A stretch of DNA of 47,239 nt. Origin: a bacterium. GTDB taxonomy: Bacteria; Latescibacterota; Latescibacteria; Latescibacterales; Latescibacteraceae. Below are positions 2,262 to 42,420 of this stretch, one piece after another. The first letter of the stretch is position 1, and each line of letters begins with the position of its first letter. Both the position numbers and the translations under genes were made by a program. The notes beneath the pieces were generated by a model, which had not been told where the DNA came from, made no database searches, and was given only the letters and a program-made list of their open reading frames with translations. The stretch is from assembly GCA_021372535.1 (NCBI GenBank), contig JAJFUH010000165.1:1-47239 (forward strand). Direction: 5' to 3'.

Positions 2262-4157
2262 ATGAACCGTATGATGCTGCTGATACTTCCCGCATTCCTG
2301 CTCCTTGCTCCGGTTGTCCAGGGGCAGACTGCCGCAGGTGATGACGAAACCGCCCGCCGTCTCCGCGAATTTGCTGCCATGCTCGAAGAAAAGCCTCATG
2401 GTTTCGGTCACCCCATTGGCGATCGCGCCGCGTGGGAACGGGTCGCGGCAATACCAGCGTTCGGCACGGTAGTCTCCGAGGCCGAAAAAAACGCAAGCCT
2501 CCCCGTCCCGGAGCTTCCTGACAGCCTTTTTCTGGAGTTCTCGCGGAACGGGAACCGTACCAATTATCAGGCGCCTCAAAGTTTGCGCCGGTCGAGGCTC
2601 ACCCTTTTCACCATCGCCGAGTGCATCGATAACCGGGGAAGGTTCCTGCCCGTTCTCGAGCGATACATCCGGGCGGTCTGCTCTGAAAGGACATGGGTAC
2701 TTCCGGCTCACGACCGCGATCTCGACAATTTTTACGGCAGGAAGGTGGAAATCGACCTTGGACAGGCAACAACCTCCCTGACTCTGGCTACCGTCCTCTC
2801 TATTCTCGGTGACCGCCTCAGCCCCGATGTCCGCCGTCTCATGGGAGCGGAAGTCCGGCGCAGAGTGTTCGTCCCGTTTCTCACCATGGTGCAGACTGGT
2901 AAAGACCTCACGTGGTGGATGACCACGACGAACAACTGGAACAGCGTCTGCCTCTGCGGCACAGCGGGCGCCGCGCTGGCCATGATCGAATCCCGTGAGG
3001 AGCGGGCATGGTTCCTTCTGGGTGTGGAGCGGTACATCCCCAATTACCTCTCGGGTTTCACGGACGACGGTTACTGCTCGGAGGGTCTCGGCTACTGGAA
3101 TTACGGATTTGGCCACTATATCATGCTCTCCGGGGTGATCAAACAGGCGACCGGCGGCTCATGGGACCTCCTCGAAAACGATAAGGTACGCCGTATCGCT
3201 CAATTCCCCGCAAATCTCGAAATCACCACAGGAGTCTATCCGGCGTTCGCGGACTGCGCGATCGATGCATTCCCCAACCCCCGGTTCATGCGTTTTCTCA
3301 ACCGCCGGTACGGTTTTAGCGATAACAAGTGGGAAAGTGTTGCACGTTCCGCGGGTGGAACGTTGTACGAGCTCGCGCTTTTCGAGGTATCGGATCCATT
3401 GTCCGATAAATCGTCGGTTTCGTCCGCAGCGCAGCCGCGCGAGAGGCGGCACTGGTTCGAACAGGCCGGTGTGCTGATCGGACGGCCTCCCGTGGAGACC
3501 GGCAGCCTCGCGGTTGCCCTCAAAGGCGGACACAACAACGAACACCACAACCACAACGATGTGGGATCGTATGTGGTGGTACTCGATGGAAAGACGCTCC
3601 TGCTCGATCCCGGCTCCGAGATATATACATCGCGGACATTCAGTCCCAATCGGTATGAAAGCACCGTACTCAATTCCTTCGGTCACCCGGTTCCGCGTAT
3701 CGGCGGTATGCTCCAGAAAACCGGTGAGGATGCCCGCGCCCGTGTGGTCTCGAAGCGTTTCACCGATGATGAGGACACCCTTGTATTCGATCTTTCCTCT
3801 GCCTATGAGGTTCCCGGGCTCGAAACCCTCGAGCGGACATTCGTCTACTCGCGGGAACTCCGGGGATACCTCACGGTCACCGACCGGATGGAATGTTCCA
3901 CGCCGCAGGCGTTCGAGACCGCTCTCGTCACTTTCGACGAATGGCATCAGCAGCCGGACGGTTCCCTGCTTGTCCGGAACGGCGATACTGCGGTGACTGT
4001 CTCCATCGATACCGGCGGCCGGAAATATACCGTTCAAGCCGGGCAGCTGCGGGAAGACCTGCCATCGAAGCGGTTCCCGACGAGAATCGGAATTGTTCTT
4101 TCGGAACCAGTGTCTGCGTCAACAGTGACGCTGACGATACGACCGGCAGTGAAGTAA
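2262..4157 (+). CDS. Secreted heparinase II/III-family polysaccharide lyase
   Basis: Start: GGGAG (2252-2256) lies 5 nt before the ATG at 2262. An in-frame TTG at 2226 has no such site and would bury the signal peptide. The 631-residue protein begins with a signal peptide (NRMMLLILPAFLLLAPVVQG). An alpha/alpha-toroid region follows (about 60-370) with the TNNWNSVC motif seen in PL15/PL17/PL21-like lyases and GYWNYGFGHY. A beta-sandwich heparinase II/III C-domain starts near residue 390 with HNNEHHNHNDVGSYVVVLDG and LLLDPGSEIY. The family eliminates uronic-acid polysaccharides (heparin-type, alginate, ulvan). The substrate is not readable from sequence. Probably periplasmic or secreted. No neighbour overlaps it. 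Confidence 0.88.
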   Translation: MNRMMLLILPAFLLLAPVVQGQTAAGDDETARRLREFAAMLEEKPHGFGHPIGDRAAWERVAAIPAFGTVVSEAEKNASLPVPELPDSLFLEFSRNGNRTNYQAPQSLRRSRLTLFTIAECIDNRGRFLPVLERYIRAVCSERTWVLPAHDRDLDNFYGRKVEIDLGQATTSLTLATVLSILGDRLSPDVRRLMGAEVRRRVFVPFLTMVQTGKDLTWWMTTTNNWNSVCLCGTAGAALAMIESREERAWFLLGVERYIPNYLSGFTDDGYCSEGLGYWNYGFGHYIMLSGVIKQATGGSWDLLENDKVRRIAQFPANLEITTGVYPAFADCAIDAFPNPRFMRFLNRRYGFSDNKWESVARSAGGTLYELALFEVSDPLSDKSSVSSAAQPRERRHWFEQAGVLIGRPPVETGSLAVALKGGHNNEHHNHNDVGSYVVVLDGKTLLLDPGSEIYTSRTFSPNRYESTVLNSFGHPVPRIGGMLQKTGEDARARVVSKRFTDDEDTLVFDLSSAYEVPGLETLERTFVYSRELRGYLTVTDRMECSTPQAFETALVTFDEWHQQPDGSLLVRNGDTAVTVSIDTGGRKYTVQAGQLREDLPSKRFPTRIGIVLSEPVSASTVTLTIRPAVK

Positions 4158-4525
4158 ATGATTATCCCCAATAATTCCTTTAGGGTATGAAAAATTAAAA
4201 AAAACCGCGCTTTTCAAAACGTCACGTCTTTTTACGTCATTTCCGCTCCGTTGCGAAAGAGCGACAGTATGAAGAGCGAAACAAAGACGAGCGAGCGTGG
4301 CGTGGTGAGTTATGACACCGTCACCGCTCCGGGGGAAGGTAACTGCCGGAGCTGCAACAAATTCCTTTATCTCCTTTTCAGGGAAAAGGGATTGAGGATA
4401 GCGGGTTTATGCATAAACCGGAATAATTTTTCAAAAATCCTGCATGATAATGAGAAGTACCATATATTTTCATATATTACAGAGAAAACAAAACCAGTCA
4501 TATATAATAACCGGGAGAAAAAACC
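4158..4525. other. Intergenic region, no gene seen
   Basis: These 368 bases have a purine/AT-rich second half. The forward open frame at 4251-4529 (92 codons) has no ribosome-binding site, no recognisable domain, and a Lys/Asn-rich end that overlaps the next start; I do not call it. TATAAT occurs at 4503-4508, but it is only 18 nt from the next ATG and has no good -35 partner. GGGAG at 4513-4517 is the ribosome-binding site of the following gene. Confidence 0.5.
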
Positions 4526-5896
4526 ATGAGTAAAACATCGCTGAAAGTGGCACAGGTCGGATTCGGGATGTTCGGGGCGCACGAGGTTGGCCGGAGCGTG
4601 GAGAGTATAGTCAGGTACGGTGTTTCTCCGTTTCTGGGAAGAATCGGCTATGCGAAGCATGCGCGGGAGCTCGCCGATGTAACATTCACCATGACGGCTT
4701 TGGGAACCCGGAGCAGGCAGTCGGCAGATCGGGCATCGGATCAGTTCGAGAAATCCACGGGTTCCCGGCCAAAAAGTTACTACGGCGAAAAATGCTGGAT
4801 ACCGATCATCGAGGAAGAGCATCCCGACATACTCGTGGTGGCAACGCCCGACAACCTTCACTATGAGCCTGCACGATTCGCGCTCGCTCACGGCGTCCAC
4901 GTTATTGTGGAAAAACCCCTCTCTCTCCGTGTCTCCGAGGTGATGGAGCTTGTAGCGACCGCCGAAACGAACGGCCTGCTCCTCGGCAGCGACAACCATA
5001 AGGAATACGATCCCGACCACATATTCATAGCCCGCAGGCTGCTTCCCCTGATCGGTCCCATCAATTACGGCCGGGCGTATCTCGAAGAACCCCTCGAGGT
5101 TTCGACATCCACTTTCAAATGGATCGCCGAGGAGGGCAAACATCAGCCTGTGCGCGAAACGCCCTTCGGATATGTCGGTATTCACTGGGTCTCGCTGTTC
5201 CAGAACATGTACGGGCGCACCGGGGAAGGCGACTACACGTTCCGTCCCGTTCACGTATCGGGGCACGGACAGAAAAACCTTCTCCTGCCGTCGTACGGCA
5301 TAGATGTTCTCGACTCCACCGTGATCGATGTCACTTATGACAGCGGCGCCAGGGTTACCTATGAGAACAACTGGATCACCCCTCCCGAGTTCTGCGGTGT
5401 CACGGTCAATCAGGGGCATGAAATAGTCGGCGCAAACGGAAAGGTCGAAAGCGACCAGCAGAACCGGGGGCTCGTGTACTGGGTCGGCAAGCACGGCCCT
5501 CAGGGTCCACCGGACGCACTGTCTCAGCGAACATCGAACACGCACTTTTTCCGCGAGGTCTATTCGCTCCATGACGGCGCAATCGACAGCTATTGCGGCT
5601 ACGGAATGGATGCCATCACCGCCTTTTTCACTGCCGTTGCGCGGGTAATGATGAAGGGAGAAAAACACGAGGCGGTAAAGGGCACATTCATCGACGGCTC
5701 TTCCCAGATACTGCCCTGCGCGGTCATAGAAGCGGGGAACGCTTCGATCTGGAAAAACCGTGAACTCCTCGAAGGCTCCCTGCCGCCGACCGCTGGCTGC
5801 GTCATTTCTCATGAAAAGGGTATCAGGCTCGACTATACCGGGGAACGCGGGGAACCGATATCGGAACCTCTCTATACGGGTAAACTCAGCCGGTGA
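4526..5896 (+). CDS. Gfo/Idh/MocA-family oxidoreductase (cytoplasmic)
   Basis: The 456-residue protein opens with a Rossmann fold (VAQVGFGMFGAHE, about 8-20) and has the family's VEKPL signature at about 128-132, where EKP contacts the nicotinamide ring and substrate. VATPDNLHYEP at about 105-115 is also typical. The C-terminal alpha/beta sheet domain spans about 165-450. It lacks the Tat-type leader found on other members here, so it should act in the cytoplasm. The N-domain carries an unusually long insert (about residues 25-95) between the dinucleotide loop and the usual acidic strand. Substrate unknown; probably an NAD(P)-dependent sugar or cyclitol dehydrogenase. GGGAG lies 8 nt before the ATG. 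Confidence 0.85.
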   Translation: MSKTSLKVAQVGFGMFGAHEVGRSVESIVRYGVSPFLGRIGYAKHARELADVTFTMTALGTRSRQSADRASDQFEKSTGSRPKSYYGEKCWIPIIEEEHPDILVVATPDNLHYEPARFALAHGVHVIVEKPLSLRVSEVMELVATAETNGLLLGSDNHKEYDPDHIFIARRLLPLIGPINYGRAYLEEPLEVSTSTFKWIAEEGKHQPVRETPFGYVGIHWVSLFQNMYGRTGEGDYTFRPVHVSGHGQKNLLLPSYGIDVLDSTVIDVTYDSGARVTYENNWITPPEFCGVTVNQGHEIVGANGKVESDQQNRGLVYWVGKHGPQGPPDALSQRTSNTHFFREVYSLHDGAIDSYCGYGMDAITAFFTAVARVMMKGEKHEAVKGTFIDGSSQILPCAVIEAGNASIWKNRELLEGSLPPTAGCVISHEKGIRLDYTGERGEPISEPLYTGKLSR

Positions 5897-6015
5897 ATCG
5901 ATCGGAATTCATGAACATTTCCCGGCATTGAACAGAACACGGATTTCTTAAAATGCGGCATGTCAATCACCACTGCAGATAGAGTTGTCATTCACGTATT
6001 ACAGGAGGTACTACC

Positions 6016-7041
6016 ATGGTTTCCGGAATGACACGGAGAAAAGCCATCGGCGCAGGAGCAGCGGCGGCAGGCGTTATACTTTCACCGACGGGTATTCGCC
6101 CGTCGCATGCATGGCCACCGGGCCCGGATGAAAATCTCAAGCGCAATCTGACACCCGGCAAGACCCCGGTTCGTCTGGCCTGTTCCGATCTGAGGATTCA
6201 CTACCCTCAGAACCAGAGCATGACCGAAATGGTGAAACATATCCGCGAGAGCGGCTATACCTCGGCTTCAACCGCCACAAACAAGGATGCGAGAAATCCC
6301 CTGCTCGACGCGACCGATGCAGAAATTACAGAGCTCAGAGCGGCCTGCAAAAAATACGATGTGACCATTTTCGATGTGATGACCTGGTCGAATCAGCTTC
6401 ATCCCGACCCGGAAATCCGTAAAAAAGCCATCAGATATGTCACCGAAAGCATCGAGGTCGCCGAACGTATCGGGTGCCTCATGGTCACATCGGTTACCGG
6501 AAGTTGCCATCCTGATAGCTTCATCGGTATTCACCCCGGTAACTGGACCGCGGAAACGTGGAAACTCACAGTGAAAACATACAGTCAGATTCTCCGCGAC
6601 ACGGCAGGTATGAAGGCGTCCCTCGGCATGGAAGCAGTTGTGACAACGAATCTCGACGGGGTCAAGGCTCATCTCAGGCTCATCGAGGATGTGGGCGATC
6701 CGCGGTGCGCGGTATGCCTCGATCCGACCAACATGGTGTCCCTTGCAAATTACTATCATACCACCGAACTCCTCGACGAGTGTTTCGACAAGCTCGGCGA
6801 GAAGATTCTCGGCTGTCATGCGAAGGACCCCTATATTCTCCCTGACAAGATGCTCGTGTATGTGACCGAGGTCGCCCCCGGAAAAGGCGTCATGGATTAC
6901 GAGACCTATCTGGTCCGCCTGAGCCGGATGGCATGGCCGCGCACACTGTTTCTCGAACACCTGCCATCGGAGGAATATCCCGGCGTAAAAGCCTTTATCG
7001 AGGGCACTGCGTCAAAGGTCGGCGTGAAGATATACGGCTGA
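6016..7041 (+). CDS. Tat-exported sugar isomerase/epimerase-like TIM barrel
   Basis: The 341-residue protein belongs to the xylose-isomerase-like (AP endonuclease 2) TIM-barrel superfamily. A twin-arginine-type leader (MTRRKAIGAGAAAAG) spans about 5-32. The expected metal ligands appear in order: Glu206 (GMEAVV), Asp236 (CLDPTN), His268 (GCHAKD) and Glu314 (LFLEHL). The family isomerises or epimerises sugars, inosose or keto-acids. A strong AGGAGG precedes the ATG. Export with a bound divalent metal fits Tat. It follows the Gfo/Idh/MocA gene by 119 bp on the same strand, a pairing common in inositol and keto-sugar catabolism, so the two probably act on related substrates in different compartments. 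That last point is inference. Confidence 0.85.
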   Translation: MVSGMTRRKAIGAGAAAAGVILSPTGIRPSHAWPPGPDENLKRNLTPGKTPVRLACSDLRIHYPQNQSMTEMVKHIRESGYTSASTATNKDARNPLLDATDAEITELRAACKKYDVTIFDVMTWSNQLHPDPEIRKKAIRYVTESIEVAERIGCLMVTSVTGSCHPDSFIGIHPGNWTAETWKLTVKTYSQILRDTAGMKASLGMEAVVTTNLDGVKAHLRLIEDVGDPRCAVCLDPTNMVSLANYYHTTELLDECFDKLGEKILGCHAKDPYILPDKMLVYVTEVAPGKGVMDYETYLVRLSRMAWPRTLFLEHLPSEEYPGVKAFIEGTASKVGVKIYG

Positions 7042-7063
7042 AAAAACCTGCTCGTCAGCCGTA
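7033..7063 (+). terminator. Stem-loop at the stop codon of the TIM-barrel gene
   Basis: TACGGCTGA at 7033-7041, which includes the stop codon, pairs perfectly with TCAGCCGTA at 7055-7063 (9-bp stem, 13-nt loop). No U-tract follows, so it may be a processing or stability element rather than an intrinsic terminator. Confidence 0.4.
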
Positions 7064-7446
7064 AAGAAGACGGTTCGGGGCTTGCCGTCATGTGATATAT
7101 CGAAACTGCAGAACATGTGCATAAAAAACACATCGGGAATATTATGGCCTCCGGAGAAAAGAAAATGCTTGGAAATTACCGGTGAGCGACTATATTTTTC
7201 ATTACGTTCAACGGAATGATAAGGTCAATGATAATAATAACGTTGAATGTCTGCATGATGACAGTATTCAATGCGTAATTACCTGTTCAATGAGAAGCTC
7301 GCGGGAAACACCGTTTTCGGGAAAACAAGCTGTCAATGGTCGGTACGAAGTGCCGATTTACATGCCCTTGACAGCGAACAGACAATACATTTTGTTATCG
7401 GGGGCGTGAAAAAGATGCTTTTTCACTGCCCACTAAGGGGAATTAC
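7042..7446. other. Intergenic region with a 5'-leader hairpin
   Basis: This 405-bp stretch holds the stop-codon stem-loop at its left end and the leader hairpin at 7402-7431 at its right end. The middle is AT-richer. The short forward frame at 7182-7409 shows no domain and no ribosome-binding site and is not called. The promoter of the epimerase gene should lie here, but no clear -35/-10 pair is visible. Confidence 0.5.
7402..7440 (+). promoter_or_regulatory. Leader hairpin with a competing Shine-Dalgarno pairing
   Basis: GGGC (7402-7405) and TGAAAAAG (7407-7414) pair with CTTTTTCA (7418-7425) and GCCC (7428-7431), giving a long near-perfect stem with a 3-nt loop. The Shine-Dalgarno AAGGGG follows at 7435-7440, 6 nt before the ATG at 7447. 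The same CCC (7429-7431) could instead pair with the GGG of the Shine-Dalgarno across ACTAA. Two mutually exclusive folds are therefore possible, one leaving the site open. Regulation is inferred. Confidence 0.45.
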
Positions 7447-8418
7447 ATGAAACAGGCGCTTGTCTGCGGAGCGGGCGGTTTTATCGGAAGTCACCTTGTG
7501 AAACGGTTAAAACGTGAAGGATTCCGGGTTCGGGGTATCGACCTCAAATACCCGGAATTCGGCGAAACGGAAGCGGACGATTTTATCATTGGCGATCTCC
7601 GTGATCCGCATGTGTGCGAAAATGCTGTCGATTGCCGGTTTGATGAGGTTTACCAGCTTGCCGCGGACATGGGCGGAGCCGGATATGTTTTCACCGGCGA
7701 GAACGATGCCGATATCATGCACAATTCGGCTCTTATCAATCTGAATATACTCGATATATGCTCGAAAAGAGATGTCGGAAGGATATTCTATTCTTCATCG
7801 GCGTGTATTTATCCAAAGTTCAATCAGGTAGACCCCCTCAACCCCAACTGCGCGGAAGATTCCGCCTACCCGGCCTATCCGGACAGCGAATACGGCTGGG
7901 AAAAACTGTTCAGCGAACACATTTATCTTTCATTTCACCGCAATTACGGCATGGATGTCCGTATTTCCCGCTTCCATAACGTTTTCGGTCCCGAGGGAAC
8001 ATGGACCGGGGGCCGTGAAAAAGCCCCGGCCGCCCTGTGCAGGAAAATTGCCATGGCGCCGGACGGCGGTGAGATCGAAATCTGGGGTGACGGCGAACAG
8101 ACACGGTCATTCCTGTATATCGACGAATGTCTCGATGGTGTTTCACTGCTCATGAACTCCGGCTGGACAGGGCCGGTCAATATCGGTTCGGAGGAGATGG
8201 TTTCCATCAACCGGCTCGCCGACATGATCATGGACATCGCCGGAAAAAAGCTGACCAAAAAACATATTACAGGACCTCTCGGAGTCCGCGGCAGGAAGTC
8301 GGATAACAGGCTCATATACGAAAAACTCGGGTGGAAACCGACCCGGCCTTTACGAATGGGCCTCGAAAAAACGTACGAATGGATAGAGCAGCAAGTGAAT
8401 AAGGCGCAGAAGGGATAA
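7447..8418 (+). CDS. GDP-mannose 3,5-epimerase-like NAD-dependent epimerase
   Basis: The 323-residue protein is an extended SDR epimerase with the NAD loop GAGGFIG at 8-14. It closely resembles plant GDP-mannose 3,5-epimerase: AADMGGAGY, SSACIYP, RFHNVFGPEGTW and GGREKAPAA are all present. Catalytic residues fall at the same spacing as in the Arabidopsis enzyme: Cys120, Tyr149, Lys153 and Lys192 here against Cys145, Tyr174, Lys178 and Lys217 there. The expected reaction converts GDP-D-mannose to GDP-L-galactose (and GDP-L-gulose). Two glycosyltransferase genes follow, so the product may feed an exopolysaccharide or glycan. A related sugar-nucleotide epimerase is possible, but the match to this subfamily is strong. 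Confidence 0.85.
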   Translation: MKQALVCGAGGFIGSHLVKRLKREGFRVRGIDLKYPEFGETEADDFIIGDLRDPHVCENAVDCRFDEVYQLAADMGGAGYVFTGENDADIMHNSALINLNILDICSKRDVGRIFYSSSACIYPKFNQVDPLNPNCAEDSAYPAYPDSEYGWEKLFSEHIYLSFHRNYGMDVRISRFHNVFGPEGTWTGGREKAPAALCRKIAMAPDGGEIEIWGDGEQTRSFLYIDECLDGVSLLMNSGWTGPVNIGSEEMVSINRLADMIMDIAGKKLTKKHITGPLGVRGRKSDNRLIYEKLGWKPTRPLRMGLEKTYEWIEQQVNKAQKG

Positions 8419-37670: not shown

Positions 37671-38987
37671 ATGAAATCCACAGCATTGATACCGCTTATT
37701 ACGGCCTTTTTCTGCATCCAGTCGTCGCCAGGCGCTCAGGAAAAGGTTCTGAATCCTGTAAACAGTGAGGAGTTACCAATAAGAATCGAGGCGTGGGTGC
37801 CGGTTCACCCGATTACGCAGGGACCGAAATACCACTGGTTTGGGTACTATGACAAGCTTCAGTTCGATCCCTCCGGCCGCTATGTACTCGGCATGGAAGT
37901 GGATTTCGAGGACCGTTCGCCCGAACCGGAGGATGTAATCAAGATCGGTATGATCGATCTGAGGGACAATGACCGGTGGATCGAGCTCGGCGAGAGCAGG
38001 GCATGGAACTGGCAGCAGGGCTGCATGCTCCAGTGGCGGCCCGGATCGGCTTCGGAAATCGTCTGGAACGACCGTGATGGCGACCGTTTTGTCTGTCATA
38101 TTCTCGACGTTTTCACCGGGAAAAAGAGGACTCTTCCTTTCCCGATCTATACGCTGAGCCCCGATGGCCATACAGCGGTGACTGTTGATTTTCAGAGGAT
38201 AAACGATATGCGACCCGGATACGGATATGCCGGAATACCCGACAAAAACAAAGACGTTCTCGCACCGAAAGACGCCGGGATTTACCGCGCCAACCTCGAA
38301 ACGGGCGAACTCAAACTTATTATTTCTGTCGCCGATATGCTCAAAATCCCCTATCCGAAAGGCGACATTTCGGACAAGAAGCACTATTTCAACCATCTCC
38401 TGTTCAATAAGGATGGCTCACGGTTCATCTTTCTGAACCGCTGGCGGATCGGGGAATACCGTGCTTCCAACCCGTCGACGCCGTTCGACACCCGAATGCT
38501 GACCGCCAGACCGGACGGCTCCGATATACGGGTGGTGGATGATTCCGGCTACACCTCCCATTTTATCTGGCGGGATACCACACACATTCTTGCATGGACA
38601 AAGCTCCCCTCGCACGGAGACCGCTTTTACCTGTTCAGCGACGACGGCTCGAAAAAGGGTGAAGCGGTGGGCCCGGATGTCATGACCGTCAACGGACACT
38701 GCACCTATCTCCCGGGCGGTGAGTGGATCCTCAACGACACATATCCCGGCGCAGACCGTCTCCAGCATGTTTATCTCTATCACATCGCCACGGGGATACG
38801 GGTTCCGGTTGCCAATGTGTTCATGCACAAGAAATACCAGTTCGACAAGGAATTCCGTGTCGATACGCATCCCCGTTTCAGCCCGGACGGCATGAGTGTT
38901 GTCATCGATTCTCCGCACGACGGCGCTGGCAGGCAGATGTATCTGCTCGATATCAGCGGAATTGCAGGCGGGAAGAAGCTCTATTAA
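37671..38987 (+). CDS. Secreted TolB/PD40-like beta-propeller protein
   Basis: The 438-residue protein has AGGAGG 9 nt before the ATG and a signal peptide (about 1-22). Repeated strand-turn units follow: YHWFGYYDKLQFDPSGRYVLG (split), DVFTGKKRTLPFPIYTLSPDG, FNHLLFNKDGSRFIFLNRW and HPRFSPDGMSVVID, each with the D/SPDG turn of WD40-like (PD40) propellers. HGDRFYLFSDDG and HCTYLPGGEWILND continue the series. Oligogalacturonate lyase and TolB share this fold. Histidines in HYFNHLL and TVNGHCTY could be ligands for a lyase, but I cannot establish catalysis. The 266-bp gap to the divergent M1 gene has a TATAAT (37584-37589) without a well-spaced -35. Function unknown. Confidence 0.72.
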   Translation: MKSTALIPLITAFFCIQSSPGAQEKVLNPVNSEELPIRIEAWVPVHPITQGPKYHWFGYYDKLQFDPSGRYVLGMEVDFEDRSPEPEDVIKIGMIDLRDNDRWIELGESRAWNWQQGCMLQWRPGSASEIVWNDRDGDRFVCHILDVFTGKKRTLPFPIYTLSPDGHTAVTVDFQRINDMRPGYGYAGIPDKNKDVLAPKDAGIYRANLETGELKLIISVADMLKIPYPKGDISDKKHYFNHLLFNKDGSRFIFLNRWRIGEYRASNPSTPFDTRMLTARPDGSDIRVVDDSGYTSHFIWRDTTHILAWTKLPSHGDRFYLFSDDGSKKGEAVGPDVMTVNGHCTYLPGGEWILNDTYPGADRLQHVYLYHIATGIRVPVANVFMHKKYQFDKEFRVDTHPRFSPDGMSVVIDSPHDGAGRQMYLLDISGIAGGKKLY

Positions 38988-39274: not shown

Positions 39275-40681
39275 TCAGAAATATGCCGGTATTTTGTAGA
39301 AGAAGAAATACCCGAACACTATTGAAGCAGCCGCGAGACCCGCAATCAGTATCCAGTGCGGCCGGAGGATTTTCCCCGCTTCAGACGATACGAGGCGGGG
39401 TAGTATCCAGAGGAGGCCGATCAGAACCGCCACCGCCTGGAACGGTGTCAGAAGGAGGCCTTCGAGTACGGCGCTCATTTTGATGATGAATACCGGTTGT
39501 ATACCGAGCGAATAGACAATCACCATGTTCGTCACAAAAAAGAAGACGATAAACAGCCTGAACTGGGTTTTCCAGCCCAGACGACCGAATCCGGGGATGC
39601 AGATTCTGCACGAATCAGATAAAAGCCGCGGCCAGCCGCCGAACTGACCGATCAGAGTACTTGCAAGTGCAGCGCACCCGGCGATCAGAAACATTACCGA
39701 GCCGATTTTACCCCACAGTTTTCCAAAAACCTCCGACAGCTCGAACGCTACAGAGGCGCCATCGGGCGCGATATGTTCGGGATGGAGAATTCCCGCGCCG
39801 GACAGCATGAATCCGCAGGTCACGACAATCCCGATTATGGTGGCTACAGTCGCGTCGGTATAGACCACTCTGCACCAGCCCCGTACTTTAAGGGCGGTTT
39901 CGGCACTCATCTGTTTCAACGCTCCGGTATCGCACGGCTGACCGTAGGGCCTGTCTTTCGCCATGCCGTAACCCGCGCCGAGCACCCAGTATGTATACCA
40001 GACCTGGCTCGCAAAACCTCCGGCGGCCCAGCCGATGAGGGGAAGAATCTCGTTCCATGTATTCGCGGATATATTCTCGAGGTTACTGGCCCAGTCGGGA
40101 ATTGCAGGGACATGAAACCCGAATACGCCGTCCGCGACAGTTCCGAATCCGGGGAATGTATGCACCGTAACGTACAGTACGCCGACAACAATAATAAAGA
40201 CAAATACGCTCATGACATACTTGATGATGTCAAAGGTGCCCGACCACACGACAACAATGGCAAATACCGTGACAATCCAGCCCCAGATGTACGGTTTGAG
40301 GGGTATGAGCGTATGGGCGAACACACCCGCAGCCGATGCTATCCCGCCAATGGAGATCGCTCCCGCACAGACCTGCCCGATAAGCACGATCCAGACAGCC
40401 CAGTTCCCCCTTCCCGGCATACGGCTGAACATGTCGATCATACCTTCGCCGGTACAGACCGTATAGTGCGCTCCGCCCGCGCCGATGAACGCCTTAAGCA
40501 TGATTCCGAAAATCGGTGCCCAGAGAACCGCATATCCAAAAATCGCGCCCATCCTCGTGGACAGAATCACCTCGCCCGAACCGATATATTCGGCGCACCA
40601 CACAAAAGCCGGTCCCACGACCGCAAAAACCGCCAGCCCCGTCGGGGCCGAAGCAATCAATTTTCTGCCGTTATGCTCCAT
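39275..40681 (-). CDS. Nramp-like membrane transporter lacking the canonical metal motifs
   Basis: The 468-residue protein has about eleven or twelve membrane segments and the Nramp (SLC11) layout: VVGPAFVWCAEYI in TM1, FGYAVLWAPIFGIMLKAFIG in TM2-3. The unwound TM1 motif DPGN, which binds Mn or Fe in true Nramps, reads GSGE (34-37) here. The TM6 MPH motif is not recognisable; GGFASQVWYTYWV occupies that place. Metal transport by the usual mechanism is therefore doubtful. The gene lies 59 bp downstream of an amidase gene on the same strand, so both probably belong to one transcript and the cargo may be an organic compound. That is inference. The ribosome-binding site is weak. Confidence 0.82.
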   Translation of the reverse strand: MEHNGRKLIASAPTGLAVFAVVGPAFVWCAEYIGSGEVILSTRMGAIFGYAVLWAPIFGIMLKAFIGAGGAHYTVCTGEGMIDMFSRMPGRGNWAVWIVLIGQVCAGAISIGGIASAAGVFAHTLIPLKPYIWGWIVTVFAIVVVWSGTFDIIKYVMSVFVFIIVVGVLYVTVHTFPGFGTVADGVFGFHVPAIPDWASNLENISANTWNEILPLIGWAAGGFASQVWYTYWVLGAGYGMAKDRPYGQPCDTGALKQMSAETALKVRGWCRVVYTDATVATIIGIVVTCGFMLSGAGILHPEHIAPDGASVAFELSEVFGKLWGKIGSVMFLIAGCAALASTLIGQFGGWPRLLSDSCRICIPGFGRLGWKTQFRLFIVFFFVTNMVIVYSLGIQPVFIIKMSAVLEGLLLTPFQAVAVLIGLLWILPRLVSSEAGKILRPHWILIAGLAAASIVFGYFFFYKIPAYF

Positions 40682-40740
40682 GAGTCACTTTCTGTTAATT
40701 ATCCGTTACAGCCCGTATATGATATTTTATCGTCATCGTA

Positions 40741-42420
40741 TTACAGAGATGGGTGTTTGAGATGAAATCCGGTGGCATTCTGGTACGTCCGGGCGAGCGC
40801 AAGCAGGGTTGCCTCATCGTAAAGCCTGCCGACAAATGATATGCTCACCGGACATCCCCGTTCGTTGAAACCATGCGGAACGATCACTTCGGGATGACCG
40901 GTAATGTTGGTAAGCCAGTTGGTCGGCCCCACAAACGTGGGAGTAACATAGGCATCTATGTCCGCCATAACTGCCTCCATAGCCTTCATGGCGTGGGTTC
41001 GGGCACGGTTTGCCTGAATATAGTCCACCGCAGGTACAAGGTGGTACGCCGGGTATCTTTTAAGACGCTCCCCCGACGATTCAACCATATCGCTCATTCC
41101 CGGATTGGTGAAGTCGAAGGCTGCGGCGCCCTCGGTAAAGAGGATAAGATACACCATATCTGCCGGACACTCAGGGAGTTCCATGGGAACCAGCTTGACA
41201 CCGAGCGAGCGGAGAACATCGAGAGTATCGTTGTTGAATTTCATATTCGTTCGAGCCCGATTTTCGACACTTTCAACCGTCCCCTCGAATTCCGCCCTGA
41301 CATACCCGACACGGAGGCTGCTGGCATCGAGCGATGAATTCCAGTTGAACGGCAGATCGACTACATCGTGGTCAAAACCATCGGGGCCGTAGAGCGCATT
41401 GAACACAACCGCGCAGTCCTCGGCTGTTCTGCAGAGCGGTCCGACCTTGTCCATGCTCCAGCTCAGCGCCATCGCACCGTACCTGCTGATACGGCCGAAT
41501 GTGGGCCGCAGCCCGGTAACTCCGCACCGTTCGGAGGGGCCGGCAATCGAGCCGCGCGTTTCGGTTCCGACAGCGAATCCGACAAGTCCTGCGGCAGTCG
41601 CGGAACCGGGCCCAGCCGACGAGCCGCTCGAACCCTCGTCGGGTTTCCACGGGTTACGGGTCTTCCCGCCAAACCAGTTTTCCCCGCTCGCGAACGCGCC
41701 TGTGGCAAGCTTCGCGATGAGCACCGCACCGGCTTCGGTCAGACGGGTAACGACGGTTGCATCCATGTCAATGATACGGTCTTTGAAAGCTTCCGAACCC
41801 CATGTTGTCCGGTAGCCGCGGACAGCGAACAGGTCCTTGATACCATAGGGGATGCCGTGGAGAATTCCTCGGTATTTCCCCGCAGCAATCTCCTCGTCAG
41901 CCTTTTTCGCCTGACGGAGGGCGAGTTCCTCGGTGAGAGTAACCACGCAGTGCAGGATAGGATCGTACTTTTTGAGGCGGCTCAGGTACATGTTCGTAAG
42001 GTCGGTGGAGGTCACCTGACGGGTTTCGATCAGCTTCGCGAGGTGTGTAACCGGGTAGTAGGCGGCATCCTCGATTCTGGCGGGTTTTTTGACGGTGACA
42101 GGGCTCATGTGAAACGGCTTCCGTTCAGCCGGAAACTTCATACCGGGAAGCGCGGGATTGAAGACGAGCGCGGGCGGGACGCTGTTACCAAGCTCGATGG
42201 TACGGATGTAATCGTATGTTTTCCCGAGGCTGTCGAGGATTTTAACCATCGATTCCCTCTCCGCTTCGGTAAACACCAGCCCGGCAATCTTTTCGGCAGA
42301 AGCGATCATGTCAACCGTGATTTCCTGCCTGTCATGTGCGACAGCGGTCAGGGCTTCGGGAAAAAGCGTACCCGCAAGCCCGGCAGAAGCGCAGTAAACG
42401 GCAAAACGTCTCCGGTTCAT
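40741..42420 (-). CDS. Tat-exported amidase (amidase-signature family)
   Basis: I chose ATG 42420 (559 residues; AGGA 6 nt upstream), which puts the twin-arginine motif at the N-terminus (MNRRRFAVYCASAGLAG). ATG 42465 (AAGGGA 7 nt upstream) is a real alternative. The Ser-cisSer-Lys triad is visible: Lys195 in YGIKDLF, a Ser of the GSSGSSAGPGSATAAG stretch (263-278) and the nucleophile Ser291 in GTETRGSI. The N-terminal ~100 residues are an added helical region common to secreted members. These enzymes hydrolyse linear amides, including acylamides and amide-capped peptides or sugars. It is followed by the atypical Nramp-like transporter, suggesting hydrolysis then uptake. Confidence 0.9.
   Translation of the reverse strand: MNRRRFAVYCASAGLAGTLFPEALTAVAHDRQEITVDMIASAEKIAGLVFTEAERESMVKILDSLGKTYDYIRTIELGNSVPPALVFNPALPGMKFPAERKPFHMSPVTVKKPARIEDAAYYPVTHLAKLIETRQVTSTDLTNMYLSRLKKYDPILHCVVTLTEELALRQAKKADEEIAAGKYRGILHGIPYGIKDLFAVRGYRTTWGSEAFKDRIIDMDATVVTRLTEAGAVLIAKLATGAFASGENWFGGKTRNPWKPDEGSSGSSAGPGSATAAGLVGFAVGTETRGSIAGPSERCGVTGLRPTFGRISRYGAMALSWSMDKVGPLCRTAEDCAVVFNALYGPDGFDHDVVDLPFNWNSSLDASSLRVGYVRAEFEGTVESVENRARTNMKFNNDTLDVLRSLGVKLVPMELPECPADMVYLILFTEGAAAFDFTNPGMSDMVESSGERLKRYPAYHLVPAVDYIQANRARTHAMKAMEAVMADIDAYVTPTFVGPTNWLTNITGHPEVIVPHGFNERGCPVSISFVGRLYDEATLLALARTYQNATGFHLKHPSL

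Follow-up and report, generated by a model that had tools for sequence, protein, structure and literature searches.

Proteins related to the Nramp metal transporters that lack the canonical DPGN and MPH motifs have already been described, and most of them are uncharacterised (PMC12873925). The aspartate of the first unwound transmembrane segment (TM1) is termed universally conserved in SLC11, the Mg-transporting NRMTs included, and EleNRMT moves Mg and Mn through an altered site (PMC8806188). The Nramp-related protein PxpT is required for growth on 5-oxoproline, and 5-oxoproline uptake has been ascribed to PxpT/YcsG from genetic evidence (PMC13274462). This role is disputed for YcsG (MntG), for which Mn import is claimed (PMC10448178), and the pxpABC genes accompany YcsG/PxpT (PMC10448178, PMC13274462). 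Cellular Mn is raised in vivo by MntG/YcsG (PMC10448178) and by MumT of Acinetobacter baumannii (PMC5050338). A literature search whose scope ended short of subscription journals and supplements returned no claim of an organic-acid role for Nramp-type carriers beyond 5-oxoproline (PxpT/YcsG), or for the GSGE type described here.

Here we present the analysis of an Nramp-related gene in a 47,239-nucleotide stretch of DNA (the window) from a bacterium of the Latescibacterota. We read its product as a cation-coupled importer of a sugar acid or a similar carboxylate, with a probability of roughly 0.5; an organic substrate is the better-supported reading than metal. The open reading frames agree with the first-pass annotation, which had placed the transporter gene 59 bp downstream of an amidase gene; both genes lie on the minus strand (Table 1). 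The amidase frame opens with ATG, and an alternative GTG 48 bases further upstream is equally open. Terminator-like sites are absent from the 59-bp gap; matches fall inside coding regions, exceeding those in shuffled sequences. Elsewhere in the window, positions 37671-38984 encode a protein of 438 aa whose start is signal-like and which matches neither Pfam nor NCBIfam models.

Table 1. Features of the transporter-amidase locus, in window coordinates
Feature	Position	Strand	Remarks
Nramp-related transporter	39275..40681	-	ATG start, 468 aa, LeuT/Nramp fold; profile matches and model
Unwound TM1 motif GSGE at residues 34-37, replacing DPGN	40571..40582	-	Alignment; model helix break at 33-34
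Unwound TM6 segment AAGGFA at residues 219-224, replacing the MPH region	40010..40027	-	Alignment and model
Gap from amidase stop to transporter start, 59 bp	40682..40740	.	Without terminator-like site
Amidase-signature enzyme, 559 aa, twin-arginine-like start	40741..42420	-	Pfam; neighbour in source genome only, as far as found

The transporter belongs to the Nramp family by profile, scoring 43.1 bits against Pfam PF01566 (cut-off 29.8) and 107 bits against NCBIfam NF037982 (cut-off 50). Its AlphaFold model (pLDDT 90.5, pTM 0.91), with helix breaks at residues 33-34 in TM1 and 219-222 in TM6, finds its best structural match in DraNramp 6d91 (Z 39.6, 2.6 A over 393 residues), and the Nramp fold proposed earlier is thereby confirmed. 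Other Nramps follow (Z about 29-38), and LeuT-fold carriers rank after them (AdiC Z 28.3, Asc1 27.6, LAT1 26.1). A profile of the clade found nothing among PDB sequences at E<=1, so that the link to the PDB stands on the fold and on one phmmer match, BfraNramp (E 5.7e-5). A search through a distant relative toward the YcsG sequence returned BfraNramp only.

The TM1 sequence AEYIGSGEVI aligns in register with AYVDPGNFAT of the canonical paralogue encoded in the same genome, and in TM6 the transporter reads GWAAGGFASQVWYTYWV where that paralogue reads GATVMPHVIFLHS. Together with 72 family rows, this alignment bears out the claim that GSGE replaces DPGN and that MPH is missing. Of the 68 family rows that have letters at TM1, 66 read GSGE (GTGE and GAWE account for one each, and four more rows are gapped), and the TM6 block is almost invariant; because both are kept across the family, the missing motifs are no effect of chance or sequencing. 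A hidden canonical site or a frame error was rejected on the same clade-wide conservation. Taking the same-genome canonical paralogue as reference and excluding gapped rows from the counts, we find that the canonical metal site is lost and that every metal-coordinating position is replaced in the clade. The TM1 aspartate column holds Gly and the TM1 asparagine column Glu in 68/68 rows each, while the TM6 methionine column holds Gly and the TM6 histidine column Ala or Gly in 71/71 rows each, in a register certain to within one residue (GGF or GFA lies opposite MPH in two alignments, neither with Met or His). The TM3 glutamate of the proton path is Leu, Val or Ile in 69/69 rows. Among the other non-canonical rows, Gly occupies the TM1 aspartate column in 66 of 68. 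The transporter therefore shows none of the marks of canonical SLC11/Nramp proteins (DPGN, MPH, TM3 Glu, a place in the canonical clade) and has those of the Nramp-related group, being an Nramp homologue without DPGN, MPH or proton-path residues. Membership in the Mg-transporting NRMTs was also rejected, as their DxxG-TxxA site is here without its TM1 Asp, Gly34 standing in its place.

The transporter belongs to a tight, widespread clade. One scan of GTDB species genomes yielded 71 relatives, whose best segments are 49-72% identical. They come from Latescibacterota, KSB1, Neomarinimicrobiota (Fidelibacterota), Planctomycetota, Hydrogenedentota, Gemmatimonadota, Acidobacteria, Bacteroidales, Rhodothermota (Roseithermus), Sumerlaeota and others, the clade covering about ten phyla. 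W28, E37, R43, K63, E79 and D83 are invariant in all 50 aligned members, as is most of the TM6 stretch G-W-x-A-G-G-F-x-S-Q-V-W-Y-x-Y-W, and E31 is near-invariant in the clade. A quick maximum-likelihood tree of 88 rows groups 40 family rows as one clade (SH-aLRT 100) apart from four canonical rows, with loci L032-L034 (69-72% identical) nearest to the window transporter; its deeper joins are unsure because several branches are long. The source genome encodes seven PF01566 proteins, only one of them with DPGN/MPH. The other six read GSGE, GTGS (three), GAGA and GGGT at TM1, and the GxG type thus accounts for 6/7 homologues. Across the phylum, PF01566 matches at 1e-5 occur in 47 of 64 genomes, and a canonical row is found in 7 of the 60 stretches taken from those genomes. 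Some non-DPGN homologues, in the source genome (L103-L109) and in L142-L146, lie near glycan-degrading genes, and a 3-keto-disaccharide hydrolase gene adjoins L144.

The TM1 motif resembles that of APC carriers. The structural VIA alignment starts with model residue 20 opposite AdiC residue 11 and, read ungapped, pairs model residues 34-36 with AdiC 25-27, which also read GSG; the same arithmetic pairs them with Asc1 55-57 and LAT1 65-67. The AdiC motif binds the carboxylate of the substrate through Ser26 and Gly27 (PMC7048771), and 55-GSG-57 of Asc1 is assigned a carboxylate-binding role as in AdiC, bound or modelled (PMC10998858). By analogy, the GSG of the transporter may use the same carboxylate chemistry; three residues can also converge.

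Sugar-acid-type neighbours recur in part of the clade. Counting up to two co-directional genes per side, spaced by no more than 150 bp, the 71 loci gave 70 neighbouring proteins, among which Pfam identified nine GntP permeases, nine ADH_N dehydrogenases, three D-2-hydroxyacid dehydrogenases and two SDR proteins. Among 67 random non-adjacent genes of the same loci, GntP and ADH_N occur at most once each, in a control tally that shows only the most-populated families and could hide a single one of either. An MDR dehydrogenase gene lies directly downstream of the transporter in Fidelibacterota (L036), Rhodothermota (L044) and Planctomycetota (L045 and L050), while in L053 and L066 it follows GntP. 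The six proteins are orthologous, being 56-85% mutually identical; the L064 and L065 dehydrogenases stand further from them. In L095, the genes run DctM, tagaturonate epimerase UxaE, 2-hydroxyacid dehydrogenase, transporter, with the three other genes just upstream. NCBIfam scores lie below the cut-off of every named enzyme; the top models are a gluconate:H+ symporter, an inosose/threonine/idonate-type dehydrogenase and gluconate 5-dehydrogenase/KduD. The E. coli idonate gene set seems to have an order similar to transporter-(GntP)-MDR-SDR. One Fidelibacterota locus and a Planctomycetota group account for the GntP neighbours, so that this link perhaps reflects two events. Most of the 71 loci have no recurring neighbour, and the other non-canonical rows, from the same phylum and from plasmids, show no dominant theme (the top Pfam family reaches 4 of 91), which gives no help to the sugar-acid reading. 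One GSGE-type gene, in L185, adjoins a DUF6785/DUF6784 protein (6104-8080 of that locus), one of two such neighbours in the tally. Canonical loci in the phylum have Usp, ZIP and cytochrome neighbours (8 proteins), and a universal stress protein gene is repeatedly found 3' of canonical Nramp genes (L133-L136, L223, L231, L232).

Plasmids offer a broader contrast. Distant relatives at 1e-5 occur in 23 plasmid records, all annotated as divalent metal transporter, and 14 of these 23 non-canonical regions were read with flanks of 5-6 kb a side. Sugar or organic-acid catabolism is encoded in 8/14, in Rubrobacter (UxaA/MR-MLE), Skermanella (SLC13/GH1), Mesobacillus (CoA-transferase/thiolase), two near-duplicate Streptomyces regions (four-carbon acid sugar kinase and PdxA), Halocatena (mannonate dehydratase), Microscilla (GH43) and Haladaptatus (gluconate symporter). 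It is absent or unclear in the remaining six, one of which has MgtC/SapB. For comparison, 10 regions were read of the 20 listed among 304 records matching the canonical paralogue: metal genes (MntR or another metal-dependent regulator, P-type ATPases, CopC, CadD) are present in five, a universal stress protein in three and an organic catabolic set in one, while the last has none of these. Catabolism (8/14 versus 1/10, Fisher p 0.024) and metal genes (0-1/14 versus 5/10, p 0.006, or 0.028 if MgtC counts) thus separate the two types, in regions whose labels were non-blind and set after seeing the data, which makes the contrast a pointer rather than proof.

On the reading we prefer, the transporter would be an alternating-access secondary importer of the Nramp-related, GxG-type branch. 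It would use a proton or sodium gradient to take up an organic solute with a carboxylate group, most probably a sugar acid or hydroxy acid. Backbone amides and the Ser hydroxyl of the GSG in unwound TM1 would hold this carboxylate, as in AdiC/Asc1, E37 (invariant) and E31 (near-invariant) could serve ion coupling, and the glycine-rich TM6 break would leave space for the remainder of the substrate. The strongest objections are the Mn effects of MumT and MntG and the second carrier in sugar-acid loci; several of these loci already have a GntP or TRAP carrier, so that the Nramp-like protein may act otherwise there. The window transporter itself adjoins an amidase, not sugar-acid genes, and E37 and E31 could be cation ligands.

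That last objection leads to the alternative that survives best, which we nevertheless consider unlikely: the transporter has remained an importer of divalent cations (Mn, Mg, Zn or other), which it would bind at a non-canonical site formed by E37, E31 and backbone carbonyls, and so provides metal-dependent catabolic enzymes with their cofactor. MumT and MntG, both of them Nramp-related, raise Mn (PMC5050338, PMC10448178), EleNRMT transports Mg and Mn despite its altered site (PMC8806188), the dehydrogenases linked to relatives are of the Zn type, E37 is invariant and the fold matches metal Nramps best. However, the TM1 Asp needed by characterised SLC11 members is Gly throughout the clade, the source genome has a separate canonical DPGN/MPH Nramp, and metal genes lie near canonical plasmid loci more often than near non-canonical ones (5/10 versus 0-1/14). 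Less likely again is an uncharged or zwitterionic organic cargo, such as a sugar, polyol, amino acid or peptide product. Sugars and amino acids are substrates of LeuT-fold relatives (SGLT and amino-acid carriers are among the structural matches), paralogues in the source genome lie near glycan-degrading genes and an M55 D-aminopeptidase gene is found near L034, but the GntP, 2-hydroxyacid dehydrogenase, UxaE and four-carbon acid sugar genes speak for acids rather than for such solutes.

The first-pass annotation had proposed that the transporter imports an organic product of the adjoining exported amidase, and had named recurring amidase linkage as a check. The amidase is an amidase-signature enzyme (262.8 bits against Pfam PF01425) whose start, MNRRRFAVY, is twin-arginine-like as read by eye. 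It carries KDLF, GSSGSSAG and GTETRGSI, presumably the Ser-Ser-Lys elements with a catalytic role. Around the relatives, no amidase-like frame was found in 100 loci, including the 71 family loci, nor in a second set of 145 loci in which other Nramp types are also represented, the two sets sharing the 71 loci L032-L102. At least 2 kb on the upstream side was available in 57 of the 71 family loci, and a regular amidase partner would therefore have shown. In the reverse direction, amidase relatives at 1e-60 occur in 22 of 64 phylum genomes, and no Nramp gene lies beside them in 29 loci besides the window's, with flanks of up to 1.5 kb a side. An amidase partnership as a rule is thus rejected from both sides, and the pairing, private to the source genome as far as seen, looks incidental. 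Despite the shared strand, the 59-bp gap, the twin-arginine-like start and the amide or lactam hydrolases that accompany other Nramp-related branches (PxpABC, MumH and a CN_hydrolase beside L157), import of the amidase product is very improbable, since no amidase-signature gene lies near relatives, no Nramp gene near other amidase relatives, and the closest relatives, L032-L034, adjoin DUF362, M55 or unrelated genes. What stands of the proposal is the organic substrate, as the better-supported reading; the amidase as the enzyme that defines it does not, the linkage being non-recurrent. The further claim of a new function for this fold was too strong, as proteins without DPGN/MPH have been described (PMC12873925) and PxpT/YcsG has been assigned to 5-oxoproline (PMC13274462). 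On the preferred sugar-acid reading, the window amidase would probably belong, along with the aldo/keto reductase and MocA-type oxidoreductase encoded nearby, to a local set for catabolism, and would not be a fixed partner. Many amidase relatives in the phylum, that of L194 among them, lie within open frames of 940-1000 aa with a long N-terminal extension, which in L194 looks beta-propeller-like by eye. In L157, a GAGD-type Nramp-related gene (4951-6357) adjoins the gene of CN_hydrolase, an amide hydrolase (3614-4906).

More tentatively, and with the odds somewhat against it, a large sector now named 'Nramp family divalent metal transporter', comprising the GxG type with the GSGE clade, may be organic-acid importers that hold the carboxylate on an APC-style TM1 GSG, the canonical metal Nramps being derived from them by a change of GSG to DPGN. 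If so, a widespread group carries incorrect curated names, since NF037982 and every annotated plasmid gene are labelled divalent metal transporter. Sugar-acid pathways would then acquire a carrier family that they had lacked, and one could test whether metal Nramps arose by conversion of an organic-acid site into a metal site. Members in defined operons make the cargo of Nramp-related proteins directly testable.

Among known systems, AdiC, Asc1 and LAT1 share GSG in unwound TM1 at the structurally aligned place, but their structural scores are lower (Z 26-28 versus 39.6) and kinship at the sequence level was not found. EleNRMT shares the Nramp fold and an altered site and differs in keeping the TM1 Asp (DxxG), where the transporter has Gly-Ser-Gly-Glu. 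MumT is, like the transporter, a low-identity Nramp homologue, encoded in a catabolic operon with allophanate hydrolase, but that operon is for urea and Mn accumulation has been shown (PMC5050338). PxpT/YcsG (MntG; TCDB 2.A.55) is alike in being Nramp-related, in sharing an operon with catabolic enzymes and in having a proposed organic substrate; it differs in adjoining the 5-oxoprolinase genes pxpABC, whose families are absent from the seven window genes scanned (the transporter and its surroundings). The text passages of PMC12873925 match the GSGE/AAGGF clade to no named group, and it is the Nramp-related proteins, the 'G-motif' groups described there and the outgroup of PMC9606685, that the transporter resembles in its Nramp fold, its loss of DPGN, MPH and proton-path residues and its place in a non-canonical clade.
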